From the NCBI RefSeq assembly GCF_014837055.1, contig NZ_JACSPQ010000010.1, positions 119,067 to 183,066 of the forward strand: a DNA stretch of 64,000 bases, written 5' to 3'. Made by a program: the position numbers and the translations under genes. Positions 23,937 through 36,955 of this stretch are shown in pieces (position 1 is the first letter of the stretch; each line of letters opens with the position of its first letter). The notes under the pieces are model-generated. The model saw only the letters and a program-made list of their open reading frames with translations, ran no database searches and was not told where the DNA came from. This stretch comes from Phocaeicola faecium. Lineage in GTDB: Bacteria > Bacteroidota > Bacteroidia > Bacteroidales > Bacteroidaceae.

Positions 23937-24029
23937 ATGAATAGATTGTTTTTACATATTTTGCTATGCGGTTTGATTAATCTACTGGAAACCCCGGTGG
24001 GAAGTGAGTCGTGTGCATATAATTGTTAG
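23937..24029 (+). CDS. leuL: Leucine-rich leader peptide of the leu operon
   Basis: A 30-codon ORF starting ATG AAT AGA and ending TGT TAG. The first half is MNRLFLHILLCGLINLLETP: seven of 30 residues are Leu (positions 4, 6, 9, 10, 13, 16, 17), encoded by TTG, TTA, CTA and CTG codons, with two Ile. It begins 20 nt after the predicted transcription start and is followed by a terminator at 24052-24089 ahead of leuA. GGAAGTGAG (24000-24008, in the leader) is complementary to CTCACTTCC (24060-24068, in the terminator). This is the layout of leader-peptide attenuation: stalling at Leu codons when leucine is scarce would free the antiterminator. The upstream A-rich tract (AAAAAAGAAGAG) is only a weak ribosome site. 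The symbol is used by analogy. Confidence 0.8.
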   Translation: MNRLFLHILLCGLINLLETPVGSESCAYNC

Positions 24030-24051
24030 ATGTAAAAACAAAAATGATATA

Positions 24052-24089
24052 AAGCCTTTCTCACTTCCTTGTGCGAAAGGCTTTTTTTT
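24052..24089 (+). terminator. Attenuator terminator of the leu operon
   Basis: AAGCCTTTC/GAAAGGCTT pairs, extended by CAC/GTG across one mismatch, with loop TTCCTT and eight T. It sits 39 bp before leuA and after the operon promoter, so it must be conditionally bypassed. Confidence 0.88.
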
Positions 24090-24127
24090 GAAGTAACAAA
24101 TGATAAAAAGATAAAAGCAATCAGACT

Positions 24128-29219: not shown

Positions 29220-30281
29220 ATGGATTTTAAAATTGCAGTATTAGCCGGCGATGGCATCGGACCTGAAATTTCGGTTCAGGGCGTAGATGTGATGACTGCC
29301 GTTTGTGAGAAGTTTAACCATACAGTTAGTTATAAATACGCACTTTGCGGCGCACATGCCATCGACGAGGTGGGCGACCCGTTCCCTGAAGATACTTACC
29401 GTATCTGTAAGGAGGCTGATGCCGTGCTGTTTTCGGCGGTAGGCGACCCGAAGTTCGATAATGACCCTACGGCGAAAGTACGTCCCGAACAGGGATTGCT
29501 GGCGATGCGTAAAAAGTTGGGATTGTTTGCCAACATCCGTCCGGTACAAACCTTTAAATGCCTGCTTCATAAGTCTCCGCTTCGTGCCGAACTGGTAGAG
29601 GGAGCCGATTTTCTCTGCATACGCGAACTGACCGGAGGCATGTACTTCGGCGAGAAATACCAAGACAACGATAAGGCGTACGACACGAATTATTACACCC
29701 GCCCGGAGATAGAACGCATCCTGAAAGTAGGATTCGAATACGCCATGAAACGCCGCAAACACCTCACCGTGGTTGATAAGGCAAACGTATTGGCTTCTTC
29801 TCGGTTGTGGCGTCAGATTGCACAGGAGATGGCTCCCAAATATCCCGAAGTCACCACCGACTACATGTTCGTCGATAACGCTGCGATGCGCATGATTCAA
29901 GAACCCACCTTCTTCGATGTCATGGTAACCGAAAATACCTTCGGCGACATCCTGACCGACGAAGGCTCTTGCATCAGCGGTTCGATGGGACTGCTTCCCT
30001 CGGCATCTACCGGAGAAAGCACGCCGGTGTTCGAGCCCATCCACGGCTCATGGCCGCAGGCTAAGGGACTGAACATCGCCAATCCGCTGGCACAAATCCT
30101 TTCCGTAGCCATGCTGTTCGAGTATTTCGACTGCAAAGAAGAAGGTGCACTGATTCGTCGTGCCGTTGATGCCTCGTTGGATGCTTGCGTACGTACTCCT
30201 GAAATCCAAGTAGAAGGCGGAGCGAAATACGGAACAAAAGAAGTAGGTGCTTGGATTGTAGACTACATCAAGAAAGCATAA
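29220..30281 (+). CDS. leuB: 3-isopropylmalate dehydrogenase
   Basis: A 353-aa NAD-dependent beta-decarboxylating dehydrogenase giving 2-oxoisocaproate, the last LeuABCD-pathway step before transamination. Motifs are [13 protein letters not shown] at the start, the substrate arginines in [13 protein letters not shown], and the metal aspartates in the VDNAAMRMI and [10 protein letters not shown] regions. Length is normal. It is the final gene of the leu operon and is followed by a strong terminator. Confidence 0.97.
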
Positions 30282-30306
30282 TACATACCCCGTATATACA
30301 CTGAGG

Positions 30307-30371
30307 CTGCTGTCTATTTCTACCCAAAATTAACCCGTTGATTAACAAGTAGAAAAGACAGCAGTTTTTTT
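30307..30371 (+). terminator. Terminator of the leu operon
   Basis: CTGCTGTC-ATTTCTAC pairs with GTAGAAAAGACAGCAG and seven T follow, 26 bp after the leuB stop. Confidence 0.9.
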
Positions 30372-30377
30372 ATTAAA

Positions 30378-30459
30378 ACGCAAGCGGTAGCGTTGCCTGT
30401 TTCTATTCGAACAACTCACCCTTTCTACCGCAAGGGATGAGTCGTCTTTGCGGTAGCGT
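30378..30459. repeat. Copy of the 22-nt phased repeat family
   Basis: GCGGTAG at 30384 and 30450 are 66 nt (3 x 22) apart. CTATTCG at 30403 and CTACCGC at 30425 are 22 nt apart. It lies between the leu terminator and the purF-car promoter. Confidence 0.8.
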
Positions 30460-30514
30460 TTATTCTGCGATAAATTATTTTTGAGAAACATTTTCTTGTG
30501 TCTGCCAAAACTAT

Positions 30515-30522
30515 TATCTTTG
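30515..30522 (+). promoter_or_regulatory. -7 element of the purF-carAB operon
   Basis: TATCTTTG fits TAnnTTTG exactly. A TTT-type -33 lies about 20 nt upstream (30491-30494). Transcription would start near 30529 and run through the leader ORF and attenuator. Confidence 0.7.
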
Positions 30523-30546
30523 CATCCCGAATTATAGGAAGACGCA

Positions 30547-30591
30547 ATGTGTAGTTTTTTTTATAAATATAGGGAATTGGATAAGAATTAA
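30547..30591 (+). CDS. Putative leader ORF of purF-carAB with a T8 run
   Basis: A 14-codon ORF (MCSFFYKYRELDKN) with an AGGAAG purine tract 9 nt upstream of its ATG. It starts about 18 nt after the predicted transcription start and ends with TAA directly against the terminator hairpin at 30592. Codons 3-6 are AGT TTT TTT TAT, so the message has eight consecutive U. The arrangement recalls the E. coli pyrBI leader, where UTP-sensitive pausing at U tracts lets a translating ribosome block the terminator. No amino acid relevant to the pathway is enriched. This is a hypothesis, and the ORF could be chance. Confidence 0.5.
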   Translation: MCSFFYKYRELDKN

Positions 30592-30632
30592 TACCTGAAA
30601 TTACTTTTCAGTAATTCAGGTATTTTTTTTAT
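30592..30632 (+). terminator. Attenuator terminator of the purF-carAB operon
   Basis: TACCTGAAATTAC pairs with GTAATTCAGGTA (one bulge), loop TTTTCA, then eight T. It sits between the promoter at 30515 and purF, so transcription into the operon must pass it. Confidence 0.85.
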
Positions 30633-30667
30633 TTATGAAGAGGCAAACTAAACGATAAGACGAAATT

Positions 30668-32551
30668 ATGGAACCACTGAAACATGAATGCGGGGTCGTG
30701 CTGATACGTCTGCTGAAACCTTTGGAGTATTATCAGGAAAAGTACGGCACGTGGATGTATGGACTAAACAAGCTGTATCTGATGATGGAAAAACAGCATA
30801 ACCGCGGACAGGAAGCGGCAGGGCTGGCTTGCGTGAAATTACAGGCAAATCCGGGAGAGGAATATATGTTCCGCGAGCGTGCGTTGGGCGCGGGGGCGAT
30901 AACCGAAATCTTCAGCACCGTGCATTCGCAATTCCGCGATCTGACACCCGAACAGATGAGCGATGCCGAATATGCCAAGACATGCCTTCCGTTTGCGGGA
31001 GAACTTTATATGGGGCATTTGCGCTATTCTACTACGGGAAAGAGCGGAATATCGTACGTCCATCCGTTTTTGCGCCGCAATAATTGGCGGGCGAAAAACC
31101 TTGCGCTGTGCGGCAATTTCAATCTGACCAATGTCGACGAGATTTTTGCAGACATTACAGCTTTCGGTCAGCATCCGCGCAAGTATGCCGATACGTATAT
31201 CATGTTGGAGCAGGTGGGGCATCGCCTCGACCGCGAAGTGGAACGGTTATATAATGAATGTAAGGCGGAGGGACTGGAAGGCATGGCTATTACCCATGCG
31301 ATAGAAGACCGCATCGACCTGACCAATGTACTGAAAACCTCTACTCCGAAGTGGGACGGGGGATATGTTATCTGCGGACTGACCGGCAGCGGAGAAACCT
31401 TTGCCGTGAGAGACCCGTGGGGCATCCGTCCGGGCTTTTGGTATATGGACGATGAGATTATGGTGTTGGCATCGGAGCGTCCGGTTATCCAGACGGCGCT
31501 GAATGTTCCTGTCGACAGCATCCATGAGTTACAGCCGGGGCAGGCTATCCTTGTTAATAAAAAAGGAGAGATGCACCTTGCACAGATAAACGAGCCGAAG
31601 GTGAAAAAGGCTTGCTCGTTTGAGCGCATCTATTTCAGCCGGGGCAGCGACATTGATATTTACCGCGAACGGAAGCTGTTGGGGAAAAAGCTGGTAGAGC
31701 CGATACTGAAAGCTGTTGATTATGACGTGGTTCATACCGTGTTCTCGTTTATTCCCAATACGGCGGAAGTAGCCTTTTACGGCATGTTGGAGGGCTTTGA
31801 CAACTATTTGAACCAGTTGAAAGTACAGCGCATCGAGGCTTTGGGGCATAAGCCCAGCCATACAGAGCTGGAGCAAATTCTTTCGCAGCGTATCCGCAGC
31901 GAGAAGGTGGCTATAAAAGACATTAAGCTGCGTACATTCATCGCCGAAGGAAACACCCGCAACGACCTTGCCGCCCATGTATATGATATTACGTACGGAA
32001 GTCTGATTCCTTACGAAGACAATCTGGTGATTATCGACGACAGCATCGTGCGCGGTACTACCCTGAAGCAAAGTATCATCAGCATCCTCGACCGTTTGCA
32101 TCCGAAGAAAATCGTCATCGTATCCTCTTCTCCGCAAGTGCGTTACCCCGATTATTATGGAATAGACATGGCAAGCATGGAGCAGTTTATCGCTTTCCGT
32201 GCAGCCATCGCCCTGCTGGAAGAGCGGGGGATGCGTGATACCATCGAGTCGGCATACCGCAAATCGAAAGCCCAACTGGGTTTGCCGAAAGAACAGATGG
32301 TAAACTATGTGAAAGAAATCTATGCACCGTTTACCGACGAAGAAGTTTCTGCCAAGATGGTAGAACTGCTCACCCCTGCCGGAACACAGGCGAAAGTAGA
32401 GATAGTCTACCAAACACTGGATGGATTGCATGAAGCATGTCCGTCGCACGAAGGCGACTGGTACTTTAGCGGTGATTATCCCACTCCGGGCGGCGTGAAG
32501 TTGGTTAATCAGGCATTTATCGACTATATAGAACAGAACTACACGTTTTGA
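30668..32551 (+). CDS. purF: Amidophosphoribosyltransferase
   Basis: A 627-aa Bacteroidetes-type glutamine PRPP amidotransferase for the first step of purine synthesis. The short leader MEPLKHE precedes C8 (CGVVLIRL), the nucleophile exposed when the propeptide is removed. The N-terminal Ntn glutaminase domain contains YMGHLRYSTTG and LCGNFNLTN. The C-terminal phosphoribosyltransferase domain has the PRPP loop VIIDDSIVRGTT. The protein is about 120 residues longer than E. coli PurF (505 aa), with insertions and a C-terminal extension after residue 530. It is followed by carA and carB, so purine and pyrimidine/arginine entry steps share one promoter and attenuator. Confidence 0.93.
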   Translation: MEPLKHECGVVLIRLLKPLEYYQEKYGTWMYGLNKLYLMMEKQHNRGQEAAGLACVKLQANPGEEYMFRERALGAGAITEIFSTVHSQFRDLTPEQMSDAEYAKTCLPFAGELYMGHLRYSTTGKSGISYVHPFLRRNNWRAKNLALCGNFNLTNVDEIFADITAFGQHPRKYADTYIMLEQVGHRLDREVERLYNECKAEGLEGMAITHAIEDRIDLTNVLKTSTPKWDGGYVICGLTGSGETFAVRDPWGIRPGFWYMDDEIMVLASERPVIQTALNVPVDSIHELQPGQAILVNKKGEMHLAQINEPKVKKACSFERIYFSRGSDIDIYRERKLLGKKLVEPILKAVDYDVVHTVFSFIPNTAEVAFYGMLEGFDNYLNQLKVQRIEALGHKPSHTELEQILSQRIRSEKVAIKDIKLRTFIAEGNTRNDLAAHVYDITYGSLIPYEDNLVIIDDSIVRGTTLKQSIISILDRLHPKKIVIVSSSPQVRYPDYYGIDMASMEQFIAFRAAIALLEERGMRDTIESAYRKSKAQLGLPKEQMVNYVKEIYAPFTDEEVSAKMVELLTPAGTQAKVEIVYQTLDGLHEACPSHEGDWYFSGDYPTPGGVKLVNQAFIDYIEQNYTF

Positions 32552-32604: not shown

Positions 32605-33681
32605 ATGAGAAACGTAACCCTTATCCTTGACGACGGGAGCCGATTCAGCGGCAAGTCGTTCGGCTACGAAAAGCCCGTAGCGGGCGAGGTTGTGTTTAAT
32701 ACAGCCATGACCGGATATCCCGAAAGCCTTACAGACCCCTCGTATGCAGGACAGTTGATGACGCTTACTTATCCGCTTGTAGGAAACTATGGTGTACCTC
32801 CGTTTACCATCGAGGCCAACGGACTGCCTACTTTTATGGAGAGTGAAAAAATTCATGCAGAGGCAATTATCGTGAGCGATTACAGCGAGAAGTATAATCA
32901 CTGGAACGCGGTAGAAAGTCTTGCCGACTGGTTGAAAAGAGAGCAGATACCGGGTATTACGGGTATAGACACGCGCGAGCTGACAAAGGTATTGCGCGAG
33001 CATGGCGTAATGATGGGGAAAATTGTTTTCGACGATGAGCCGGATAACATCCCCGAAGCTACTTATGCGGGTGTGAATTATGTCGATAAGGTGTCATGTA
33101 AAGAGGTGATTCGGTATAACGAAGGAGAAGGCAAGAAGAAAGTGGTGCTTGTTGACTGTGGCGTGAAAGCGAATATCATCCGCTGTCTGCTGAAGCGCGA
33201 CGTAGAGATTATCCGTGTTCCGTGGAACTATGATTTCAACGGACTGGAATTCGACGGACTGTTCATCTCAAACGGTCCCGGTGATCCGGACACCTGCGAT
33301 GAGGCTGTGCAGAATATCCGTAAGGCTATGCAGAATGAAAAGTTGCCTATCTTCGGTATCTGTATGGGAAACCAGCTTTTGTCGAAAGCAGGGGGAGCCA
33401 AGATTTATAAGTTGAAGTACGGTCACCGCAGCCACAATCAGCCGGTGCGTATGGTGGGTACGGAAAAATGTTTCATCACCAGTCAGAATCACGGTTACGC
33501 CGTAGACAACAATACGCTGGGGGCAGACTGGGAACCGCTTTTCATCAATATGAACGACGGGTCGAACGAAGGAATCCGTCACAAACAGAATCCGTGGTTC
33601 TCGGCGCAGTTCCATCCCGAAGCAGCCAGCGGTCCTACGGATACCGAGTTTTTGTTTGATGAGTTCGTGAAACTTCTCTAA
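32605..33681 (+). CDS. carA: Carbamoyl phosphate synthase, small subunit
   Basis: A 358-aa glutaminase subunit that feeds ammonia to CarB. The N-terminal CPSase small-chain domain opens TLILDDGSRFSGKSFG. The C-terminal class I amidotransferase has the nucleophile cysteine in PIFGICMGNQLL and the His-Glu pair in SAQFHPEAASGP. The length is near the E. coli value (382 aa). It lies 53 bp after purF and 46 bp before carB with no terminator between. Confidence 0.97.
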   Translation: MRNVTLILDDGSRFSGKSFGYEKPVAGEVVFNTAMTGYPESLTDPSYAGQLMTLTYPLVGNYGVPPFTIEANGLPTFMESEKIHAEAIIVSDYSEKYNHWNAVESLADWLKREQIPGITGIDTRELTKVLREHGVMMGKIVFDDEPDNIPEATYAGVNYVDKVSCKEVIRYNEGEGKKKVVLVDCGVKANIIRCLLKRDVEIIRVPWNYDFNGLEFDGLFISNGPGDPDTCDEAVQNIRKAMQNEKLPIFGICMGNQLLSKAGGAKIYKLKYGHRSHNQPVRMVGTEKCFITSQNHGYAVDNNTLGADWEPLFINMNDGSNEGIRHKQNPWFSAQFHPEAASGPTDTEFLFDEFVKLL

Positions 33682-33727: not shown

Positions 33728-36700
33728 ATGAAAGAAAATATAAAGAAAGTATTGTTGTTAGGTTCCGGAGCCTTGAAAATCGGAGAGGCAGGTGAGTTTG
33801 ATTACTCCGGCTCGCAGGCGCTCAAGGCGTTGAAAGAAGAAGGTATTCAAACCGTTCTTATCAATCCTAATATCGCCACGGTGCAGACTTCGGAAGGGGT
33901 TGCCGACCGTATCTATTTCCTTCCCGTTACTCCGTATTTCGTAGAGAAGGTGATTGCAAAAGAACGTCCCGACGGCGTGTTGTTGTCGTTCGGAGGACAG
34001 ACAGCGCTTAACTGCGGTGTGGAGCTGTATCGTGCAGGCGTATTCGAGAAGTACGATGTGCAGGTACTCGGTACGCCCGTTCAGGCTATCATGGATACCG
34101 AAGACCGTGAGTTATTTGTAAAGAAACTCGATGAGATAAATGTCAAAACCATAAAGAGCGAGGCTTGCGAGAACATCGAACAGGCACGTCAGGCTGCCCG
34201 TGATTTGGGCTATCCCGTTATCATCCGTGCGGCTTATGCGCTGGGCGGACTCGGTAGTGGTTTTTGCGACAATGAAGACGAGCTGAACGTACTTGCCGAA
34301 AAAGCATTCTCGTTTTCTCCGCAAGTATTGGTGGAAAAGAGCTTGAAAGGATGGAAGGAAGTGGAATACGAAGTGGTGCGCGACCGTTTCGACAACTGTA
34401 TCACGGTCTGCAACATGGAGAACTTCGACCCGCTGGGAATCCACACGGGTGAAAGTATCGTTATCGCTCCGAGCCAGACGTTGACAAACAGCGAATACCA
34501 TAAGTTGCGTGAGCTTGCCATCCGCATCATCCGTCACATCGGTATCGTAGGAGAATGTAACGTGCAGTATGCTTTCGACCCCGAATCAGAAGATTACCGC
34601 GTAATCGAAGTCAACGCACGTCTGTCTCGTTCGTCTGCGCTTGCTTCTAAAGCCACGGGTTATCCGTTGGCATTCGTGGCTGCGAAGTTAGGTTTGGGTT
34701 ACGGACTGTTCGACCTGAAGAACTCGGTTACTAAGACCACTTCGGCATTCTTCGAACCGGCATTAGACTACGTGGTTTGTAAGATTCCGCGTTGGGACTT
34801 GGGTAAATTCCACGGCGTAGACCGCGAATTGGGTTCAAGTATGAAGTCTGTGGGCGAGGTGATGGCTATCGGACGCACGTTTGAAGAAGCCATTCAGAAA
34901 GGTTTGCGCATGATTGGTCAGGGAATGCACGGCTTTGTAGAGAACAAAGAACTGGTTATCGCTGACATCGACAAGGCGTTGCGCGAGCCGACCGACAAAC
35001 GTATCTTTGTAATCTCAAAGGCTATGCGTGCGGGATATACCGTTGACCAGATTCACGAGTTGACCAAGATTGACAAGTGGTTCCTCTATAAGTTGGAAAA
35101 CATCATGCAGACTTCAAAAGAGCTGAACGATTGGGGAAACAATCACAACCAAATTGCCCAGCTCCCGCAAGACCTGCTGTATAAAGCAAAACGTCAGGGA
35201 TTCTCCGATTTCCAAGTAGCCCGTGCGATAGGTTATCAAGGCGATATGGAAGACGGCATTCTTGAGGTGCGTCGTTACCGCAAGAGCGTAGGCATTGTTC
35301 CGGTGGTGAAACAGATTGATACGCTGGCTGCGGAATATCCGGCACAGACAAACTATCTGTATCTTACTTACAGCGGCGTGGCTAACGATGTTCATTATTT
35401 AGGCGATCATAAGAGTATTGTGGTACTGGGTTCGGGAGCTTATCGCATCGGTTCGTCGGTAGAATTCGACTGGTGCGGCGTGCAGGCGCTGAACACCATC
35501 CGTAAGGAAGGATACCGCTCGGTTATGATTAACTACAACCCCGAAACCGTTTCTACGGACTACGATATGTGCGACCGTCTGTACTTCGACGAGCTGACTT
35601 TCGAGCGTGTGATGGATATCCTCGACTTGGAGAACCCGCATGGCGTAATCGTTTCTACGGGTGGTCAGATTCCGAACAACCTTGCTCTTCGTCTGGATGC
35701 TCAGAAAGTAAACATCCTCGGTACGTCTGCCAAGAGCATCGACAATGCGGAAGACCGTGACAAGTTCTCGGCAATGCTCGACCGTATCGGTGTCGACCAG
35801 CCTGAATGGAGCGCGTTGACTTCGATGGAAGATATCAATGCCTTTATCGAAAAGGTAGGATTCCCTGTGCTGGTTCGTCCGTCGTACGTGTTGTCGGGAG
35901 CGGCTATGAATGTATGCTCCAACCAAGAAGAGCTGGAACGTTTCCTTCAGTTGGCAGCCAACGTATCGAAGAAACACCCGGTTGTGGTGAGCCAGTTTAT
36001 CGAACATGCAAAGGAAGTGGAAATGGACGCAGTGGCTCAAAACGGCGAAATCGTGGCATACGCAATTTCCGAGCATATCGAGTTTGCCGGCGTACATTCC
36101 GGAGACGCAACCATCCAGTTCCCGCCCCAAAAGCTGTATGTTGAAACGGTGCGCCGCATCAAGCGTATTTCCCGTCAGATAGCCAAAGAACTGAACATCT
36201 CCGGACCGTTCAATATCCAGTTCCTTGCCCGTGAAAACGACATCAAGGTTATTGAGTGTAACTTGCGTGCCAGCCGTTCATTCCCGTTCGTAAGCAAAGT
36301 GCTGAAGATAAACTTCATCGAGCTTGCCACGAAAGTGATGCTGGGTATTCCGGTAGAGAAGCCCGAAAAGAACTTGTTCGAATTGGATTACGTGGGAATC
36401 AAAGCCAGCCAGTTCTCATTCAACCGTTTGCAGAAAGCCGACCCGGTTTTGGGCGTGGATATGGCTTCGACAGGCGAGGTAGGATGTATCGGCGAAGACA
36501 CCTCATGCGCTGTTCTGAAAGCCATGTTGTCTGTCGGTTACCGCATCCCGCAGAAAAACATTCTCATGTCTACCGGTGCGCCCAAGCAGAAAGTGGATAT
36601 GCTGCAAGCGGCTCAAGCATTGAAGGCTAAAGGGTATAACATTTTCGCTACGGGCGGTACGTCTAAATTCCTGACCGAAAACGGCGTGGAAAATACGCGC

Positions 36701-36955
36701 GTGTTCTGGCCCAGCGAAGAAGGTCATCCGCAAGCGTTGGAAATGTTGCATAACAAAGAGATAGACATGGTGGTGAACATCCCGCGCGACTTGTCGGCAG
36801 GAGAGCTGGATAACGGTTACAAGATTCGCCGTGCAGCCATCGACTTGAATATTCCTTTGATAACCAACGCCCGTCTTGCCAGTGCGTTTATCAATGCGTT
36901 CTGCACCATGACGATTGACGATATCGCCATCAAAGGTTGGGATGAATATAAATAA
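33728..36955 (+). CDS. carB: Carbamoyl phosphate synthase, large subunit
   Basis: A 1075-aa protein with two homologous ATP-grasp halves that make carbamoyl phosphate from bicarbonate, ammonia and two ATP, for pyrimidines and arginine. Each half opens with a matching Rossmann-like motif: VLLLGSGALKIGEAGEFDYS near residue 8 and VVLGSGAYRIGSSVEFDW near 565. Halves are joined by the oligomerisation region, and a C-terminal MGS-like allosteric domain (about 940-1075, with TGGTSKFL) binds UMP or ornithine in homologues. Length matches E. coli CarB (1073). A terminator follows. Confidence 0.98.
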   Translation: MKENIKKVLLLGSGALKIGEAGEFDYSGSQALKALKEEGIQTVLINPNIATVQTSEGVADRIYFLPVTPYFVEKVIAKERPDGVLLSFGGQTALNCGVELYRAGVFEKYDVQVLGTPVQAIMDTEDRELFVKKLDEINVKTIKSEACENIEQARQAARDLGYPVIIRAAYALGGLGSGFCDNEDELNVLAEKAFSFSPQVLVEKSLKGWKEVEYEVVRDRFDNCITVCNMENFDPLGIHTGESIVIAPSQTLTNSEYHKLRELAIRIIRHIGIVGECNVQYAFDPESEDYRVIEVNARLSRSSALASKATGYPLAFVAAKLGLGYGLFDLKNSVTKTTSAFFEPALDYVVCKIPRWDLGKFHGVDRELGSSMKSVGEVMAIGRTFEEAIQKGLRMIGQGMHGFVENKELVIADIDKALREPTDKRIFVISKAMRAGYTVDQIHELTKIDKWFLYKLENIMQTSKELNDWGNNHNQIAQLPQDLLYKAKRQGFSDFQVARAIGYQGDMEDGILEVRRYRKSVGIVPVVKQIDTLAAEYPAQTNYLYLTYSGVANDVHYLGDHKSIVVLGSGAYRIGSSVEFDWCGVQALNTIRKEGYRSVMINYNPETVSTDYDMCDRLYFDELTFERVMDILDLENPHGVIVSTGGQIPNNLALRLDAQKVNILGTSAKSIDNAEDRDKFSAMLDRIGVDQPEWSALTSMEDINAFIEKVGFPVLVRPSYVLSGAAMNVCSNQEELERFLQLAANVSKKHPVVVSQFIEHAKEVEMDAVAQNGEIVAYAISEHIEFAGVHSGDATIQFPPQKLYVETVRRIKRISRQIAKELNISGPFNIQFLARENDIKVIECNLRASRSFPFVSKVLKINFIELATKVMLGIPVEKPEKNLFELDYVGIKASQFSFNRLQKADPVLGVDMASTGEVGCIGEDTSCAVLKAMLSVGYRIPQKNILMSTGAPKQKVDMLQAAQALKAKGYNIFATGGTSKFLTENGVENTRVFWPSEEGHPQALEMLHNKEIDMVVNIPRDLSAGELDNGYKIRRAAIDLNIPLITNARLASAFINAFCTMTIDDIAIKGWDEYK

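Follow-up and report, generated by a model that had tools for sequence, protein, structure and literature searches.

Known attenuators and comparison with the leader before purF-carAB

In Escherichia coli, the leader gene of pyrBI is named pyrL, and in the rph-pyrE attenuator the reading frame of the upstream gene itself serves as the leader, ending next to the terminator. The pyrBI terminator lies within the leader gene, which is 135 bp long (PMC4824070). In Bacteroidetes, the -7 box of which has the consensus TAnnTTTG, small ORFs in the long 5′ UTRs of B. thetaiotaomicron have been described as reminiscent of leader peptides (PMC7366714), and a flavobacterial study reported indications of attenuation by leader peptides ahead of amino-acid operons (PMC9723704). 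In the open-access journal articles searched, neither a pyrBI-like or otherwise UTP-sensing attenuator of Bacteroidetes nor a leader ahead of purF-carAB was seen to be reported.

The leader described here was found in a 64-kb stretch of Phocaeicola faecium DNA, referred to as the window. Like that of pyrBI, it has a leader ORF placed before a pyrimidine-pathway operon and would need no regulatory protein; in many relatives with long leaders, the terminator lies inside the ORF and a U-rich stretch precedes it, as in pyrBI. It differs from pyrBI in having a Bacteroidales promoter and no classical Shine-Dalgarno sequence, in preceding a purF-like-carA-carB operon with an apparently glmS-derived leader and, in the window, in a 14-codon ORF that stops at the hairpin edge with no usable pause tract. 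As in rph-pyrE, the reading frame of an upstream gene appears to act as leader and ends by the terminator, but here only a glmS remnant is left, which cannot be the enzyme.

Organization of the window leader

The following features were identified in the leader:
30515..30522, + strand: -7 promoter box of the Bacteroidetes type, TATCTTTG (sequence)
30547..30591, + strand: leader ORF of 14 codons, MCSFFYKYRELDKN followed by a stop (translation; relatives)
30555..30562, + strand: T8 run in codons 3-6 of the leader ORF (sequence)
30592..30622, + strand: terminator hairpin (sequence, folding; covariation in relatives)
30623..30630, + strand: terminator U8 tract, T8 in the DNA (sequence)

The original prediction had named the box, the 14-codon ORF, the T8 run, a stop codon touching the terminator and the downstream genes, all of which were confirmed by direct reading. 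The ORF starts with ATG at 30547 and ends with TAA at 30589-30591, and the left arm of the hairpin, TACCTGAAATTACT-TTTC-AGTAATTCAGGTA with a single unpaired A, begins right after this stop codon. Judged from the box, transcription would start at about 30529, approximately 18 nt 5′ of the ATG. The box is followed by GCATCCCGAA, which is present in the same or a close form ahead of many leader ORFs of the genus, and TATCTTTGCATCCCGAA occurred once in the 64 kb at ≤2 mismatches versus 0 expected; the box and its spacing were also found in the leaders of relatives. The leader RNA folded with a z score of -4.21 relative to shuffled sequences, none of 200 being as good. Simple automated scans found no sigma-70 promoter and missed the window hairpin, in our opinion owing to the bulged A. 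Identity with an Rfam riboswitch or leader RNA was rejected, as nothing within 30280-30680 matched an Rfam model at E ≤ 1. Within 464 kb of the window genome, the order box-hairpin-gene was observed for 7 of 373 CDS, and in 3 of the 373, the window locus among them, a leader ORF extends to the hairpin as well; the layout alone is thus unusual, not unique. Inverted repeats GCGGTAG/CTACCGC, terminator-like on the + strand, are located at 30377-30456 between leuB and the purF promoter.

The window holds one more leader of interest:
23937-24095: Leu-type attenuator before leuA, with leader MNRLFLHILLCGLINLLETPVGSESCAYNC followed by a stop and a terminator with T8 (sequence)

In this leader, a possible antiterminator is formed by GGAAGTGAG with CTCACTTCC (duplex, -16.6 kcal), and the stretch as a whole folds to the terminator form (z -1.67). 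The leuA and purF leaders, both from the same genome, share a leader ORF, a terminator and the promoter type, whereas the leuA leader differs in its leucine-rich peptide, its possible antiterminator, and a stop codon situated >20 nt before the terminator. Since it resembles an ordinary Leu-type attenuator, the anatomy of leader-peptide attenuation exists in the window genome.

Genes downstream of the leader

Three genes follow the leader:
30668..32551, + strand: purF-like gene for a class II glutamine amidotransferase of 627 aa (profile searches)
32605..33681, + strand: carA, carbamoyl-phosphate synthase small subunit (TIGR01368, 456 bits, passing the NCBIfam cut-off)
33728..36955, + strand: carB, carbamoyl-phosphate synthase large subunit (TIGR01369, 1573 bits, passing the NCBIfam cut-off)

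Assignment of the operon as purF-carA-carB thus stood for carA and carB, by which genes of pyrimidine biosynthesis lie behind the leader, and only in part for purF. The 627-aa protein scored 133 bits against TIGR01134, below the cut-off of 350, and a second PurF-like protein of 471 aa, encoded at G000:C1:199466-200851, scored 176.5 bits, also below it; therefore, purF is to be read here as purF-like. Either of the two proteins may be the phosphoribosylamine maker. The carA gene is immediately 3′ of purF in 24 of the 27 leader loci long enough to test; it is about 1.4-1.6 kb beyond purF in L008 and L009, and in L070 the contig ends. A 348-aa gene lies between purF and carA in L009 (with L259), and L008 (with L260) has a similar gap.

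Leaders in related genomes

In the genus Phocaeicola, 53 of 61 genomes carry the purF-like gene at E ≤ 1e-100. The 55 genus matches provided 50 upstream regions that were read, five having been left out because of contig ends or partial matches, and removal of the duplicate L116 gave 49 distinct regions. A hairpin plus leader ORF precedes purF in 26 of these and is absent from 23; two Mediterranea MAGs (L044 and L070) also carry the element, making 28 leaders in total. Long ORFs of 53-113 codons are present in 22 leaders and short ORFs of 10-17 codons in six, namely those of the window, L002, L006, L008, L009 and L070, and in all 28 the stop codon is located at -15 to +147 nt relative to the hairpin start. 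The starts of the leaders were selected visually from the ATGs on the list. The automatic scan overlooked the hairpins of L010 and L017, both with poor U tracts behind them, as well as the L008 ORF, all of which were added on inspection. L030 and L115, flagged by the scan, were left uncounted (no fitting box or weak fold). L077, also uncounted, may be a further case, with a box and with an ORF that runs across its hairpin. In the named loci L036-L110, the other terminators before purF mostly trail upstream genes. In L009, a tRNA-Thr is situated between the box and the leader ORF; visual inspection suggests the same for L002 and L008.

A wider search of the family covered 23 further loci (of 128 genomes with a match), two of which (L237 and L238) were genus loci already covered, and a clear leader attenuator was seen in none of them; by sequence pattern, 11 of the 23 have a glmS end before purF.

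Conservation of the hairpin and of open frames across it

In 12 sequences hand-picked from the 28 leaders, six of the 12 hairpin pairs had changed on both sides (16 cells), a result reached by none of 500 shuffles, and slid versions gave 0-2 pairs. The long ORFs, eight of which come from one close clade among the 22, contain no in-frame stop between the ATG and a position 30 nt beyond the hairpin start in 21 cases, the exception being L017, which ends at the hairpin edge, while stops are present beyond codon 9 in the other two frames in 37 of 44 cases. The frame in which these ORFs cross the hairpin differs among species. In the L012-L020 group, with eight members, a one-base indel at codon 8 produces two frames (L012, L014 and L016 versus the rest), yet each of the eight has its own frame open to beyond the hairpin, three frames in all being used to cross it. 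Since the frame changes and openness is retained, it is openness that is kept and not the peptide. Six of the eight have stops in the sister frame, which in L014 and L016 is stop-free beyond codon 9, so that openness is in part a by-product of T-rich DNA. Selection for reading across the hairpin is favored by these observations, and a functional peptide is disfavored, although stops are scarce in T-rich DNA. In L003, the purF ATG follows the T run at a distance of 17 nt, which leaves no space for a promoter, and transcription must therefore read through. A combined P of 4.6e-12, calculated from 11 hand-picked lineages, was given no weight because these lineages share descent.

U-richness of the long leaders and the case for UTP sensing

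In the last 80 nt before the hairpin, the long leaders have a mean T fraction of 0.44, compared with 0.25 over the 60 nt that follow the ATG, 0.24 after the hairpin and 37% in pre-promoter DNA; the window genome, from which alone the composition controls were drawn, has 0.31 in intergenic regions and 0.25 in CDS. For distal T, 13 of the 22 long leaders ranked among the highest 5% of intergenic windows, and the 40-nt pyrimidine tract was matched by ≤2.7% of intergenic controls in eight of the 22 and was unexceptional in 14. As pre-promoter DNA has a T excess of its own (37% T, with enriched T5+ runs), the U excess of the leaders is moderate. Compared with shuffled sequences, T5+ runs numbered 50 versus 12.9 in pre-promoter DNA and 54 versus 15.8 in leaders, and the T-run count was dropped as evidence because this control was equally enriched. 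The triplet TTT was about equally frequent in the three frames of the leaders (100/91/110), indicating that U is enriched and not Phe codons. An extra hairpin is often found ahead of the U-rich stretch, only weakly beyond chance (mean z -1.25), and it showed no both-sided change in the L012-L020 group, so that no covariation is claimed for it.

In a toy kinetic model with assumed parameters, the long leaders L014 and L003 rose at low UTP under all nine parameter sets; under one parameter set, L003, L004, L010, L011, L014 and L022 responded, and L017, with its long ORF ending at the hairpin, hardly did. By these tests, many long leaders possess the anatomy of pyrBI, and UTP sensing by them is plausible, in which case RNA polymerase would be slowed at U when UTP is low and the ribosome would catch up. 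A general pyrimidine regulon controlled by attenuation was rejected, since pyrB lacks the attenuator: none was present at 30 pyrB loci of the same genus, one of which had a terminator-like hairpin located before its box.

The short leader of the window

The T8 run had been predicted to be the UTP sensor of the window copy. This part was not supported, as the run begins 5 nt after the ATG, is not conserved in the other short leaders and had no clear effect in the model; a polymerase paused there would, by reasoning, still cover the start codon. Among the other five short leaders, L002, L006 and L009 have TTT, T4 and T5 are present in L008, and L070 lacks any such run; conservation of a T run in relatives, which had been suggested as a check, thus failed for the exact T8 and was found in the form of U-rich leaders in general. 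The window leader lacks a pyrimidine tract, having 18 pyrimidines in its best 40 nt, for which the 160-nt controls are an unfair match to the only 46 nt between ATG and hairpin, and it contains no U-rich pause tract far enough from the AUG for ribosome loading. Without this defining feature, the window copy is not filed as a pyrBI-type member. In the toy model, removal of the T8 was without clear effect under nine parameter sets, and a response to UTP, weak and irrespective of the T8, was seen chiefly when ribosomes were slow to be released from the stop codon.

In purF trees, the window is placed beside the long-leader loci L003 and L007 (support of 98 in one tree, 83/73 in another), and the short form therefore looks derived; the window hairpin and start resemble those of L002, L004, L005, L006 and L009 more than those of L003/L007. 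The window copy can be regarded as a reduced form of the attenuator, which likely works by coupling between ribosome and hairpin, and for which UTP sensing by the proposed T8 route is doubtful.

Probable origin of the leader from glmS

The glmS gene is usually needed for cell-wall precursors. An intact copy is located directly before purF in four genomes of the genus (G008, G026, G027 and G060), where its start sequence is TATCTTTGCAG(T/C)C(G/A)AAT, located some 40 nt ahead of the ATG. This start sequence resembles the TATCTTTGCATCCCGAAT of the leader; TATCTTTGCA is also present ahead of the tRNA in L002, L008 and L009, and hence only the tail and the spacing are specific to the likeness with glmS. 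Fragments of the GlmS N-terminus were detected 150-380 nt before purF in G041, G018 and G011, corresponding to TIGR01135 residues 2-47, 1-43 and 1-38 with E values of 4.8e-8, 2.7e-6 and 6.7e-6, respectively. In an ungapped comparison with the GlmS N-terminus, nine of 32 leader starts matched at P < 0.01; by this comparison, likeness was clear in L022, L027, L123 and L005, was absent from the L012-L020 group, and was weak for the 14 residues of the window leader (P 0.03). Likeness to GlmS was also clear in L111, L114 and L118. L114 and L118 have a glmS fragment and no terminator. The window genome has an intact glmS elsewhere (G000:C5:86084-87922), and a full-length glmS match was missing in several near-complete Phocaeicola genomes (G002, G011, G018, G057 and others). 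In L248, from another genus of the family, an apparent decayed 3′ end of glmS is seen just before purF. Most likely, there was once a glmS-purF-carA-carB operon of whose first gene only the 5′ end remains, as the leader ORF and its promoter, and the 14-codon ORF of the window is probably a reduced leader of this origin.

Proposed mechanism and alternative explanations

The comparison of relatives lends good support to a ribosome-coupled attenuator before purF-carAB. This component of the original prediction stood, on the basis of ORF placement in 28 of 28 leaders, hairpin covariation and the anatomy of the long leaders, and UTP sensing through the T8 did not. As a whole, the reading that we prefer, and hold to be probable if by no means secure, is that of a ribosome-coupled transcription attenuator derived from glmS, with the logic of pyrBI in the long-leader relatives and a shortened derivative in the window. 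Transcription would begin just 5′ of the leader ORF. RNA polymerase arriving at the hairpin at a time when no ribosome is translating the end of the ORF would be stopped before purF-carAB by hairpin formation, whereas a ribosome positioned over the left arm would allow the polymerase to pass. In the long-leader relatives, the U-/pyrimidine-rich stretch would slow the polymerase when UTP, and CTP derived from it, are scarce, such that the ribosome catches up. The window copy would have kept the coupling through its stop codon at the hairpin edge and lost the pyrimidine tract; it probably reports leader translation, with at most a weak response to UTP.

A related possibility, rather unlikely in our estimate, is that the element is a translation-status attenuator or a fixed partial terminator without nucleotide sensing, the leader ribosome setting a constant or growth-dependent read-through. 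The short leaders, which end near the hairpin edge without a pyrimidine tract, agree with it, as does the finding that in E. coli termination fell from ~90% to <10% once the distance between stop codon and terminator had been shortened from 28 to 5 bp (PMC4824070), but the U-/pyrimidine-rich distal leaders of many long-leader relatives would be left unexplained. Less likely still is UTP sensing by the window leader itself, in which a polymerase pausing at the T8 would give the leader ribosome time to arrive at the hairpin: T8, ORF and hairpin are all in place and the long-leader relatives are U-rich, but a polymerase at the T8, 5 nt past the ATG, would leave the start codon hidden, no T8 is present in the other five short leaders, and its removal had no clear effect under any of the nine parameter sets, any response depending mainly on slow release from the stop codon.

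Only a slight chance is given to the view that a decaying glmS remnant is followed by the terminator of the upstream operon, with the purF promoter after the hairpin. Remnants of glmS do decay at these loci, and TATTTATG at 30630-30637 is one mismatch off TAnnTTTG; against this, the hairpin covaries, ORFs are open across it in several frames, L003 has no room for a promoter, and the upstream leu operon has an apparent terminator of its own at ~30305-30373 (seen by eye and absent from the automated scan). Amino-acid attenuation, or an arrest peptide, is the most improbable of all. A leader ORF is present and the leuA leader of the window exemplifies that type in the same genome, but the peptides are not conserved and change frame, and TTT shows no frame bias, on which grounds amino-acid attenuation was rejected; the terminator touches or overlaps the ORF, while amino-acid attenuators keep >20 bp (PMC4824070), and no antiterminator was seen in a search that was not systematic. 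The remark made at the outset that the peptide is not enriched in an amino acid of the pathway proved correct, with no Gln and one Arg in MCSFFYKYRELDKN.

Implications for Phocaeicola and the Bacteroidales

Returning to the glmS-derived, ribosome-coupled attenuator, a more far-reaching proposal, to which we give slightly less than even credence, is that Phocaeicola, independently of the enterobacteria, made a protein-free pyrimidine sensor for the purF-like-carAB genes out of what survived at the 5′ end of a decayed glmS, its promoter and start codon having given rise to a leader ORF that stays open across the terminator in any frame and a U-/pyrimidine-rich tract serving as the sensor, and that some species, including that of the window, later trimmed it to the short form, with the signal changed or lost. 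If working as proposed, the element would represent an independent invention of the pyrBI logic and would imply a working transcription-translation coupling in Bacteroidales. The natural series from intact glmS through fragment and long leader to short leader would then depict a dead gene becoming a regulator.
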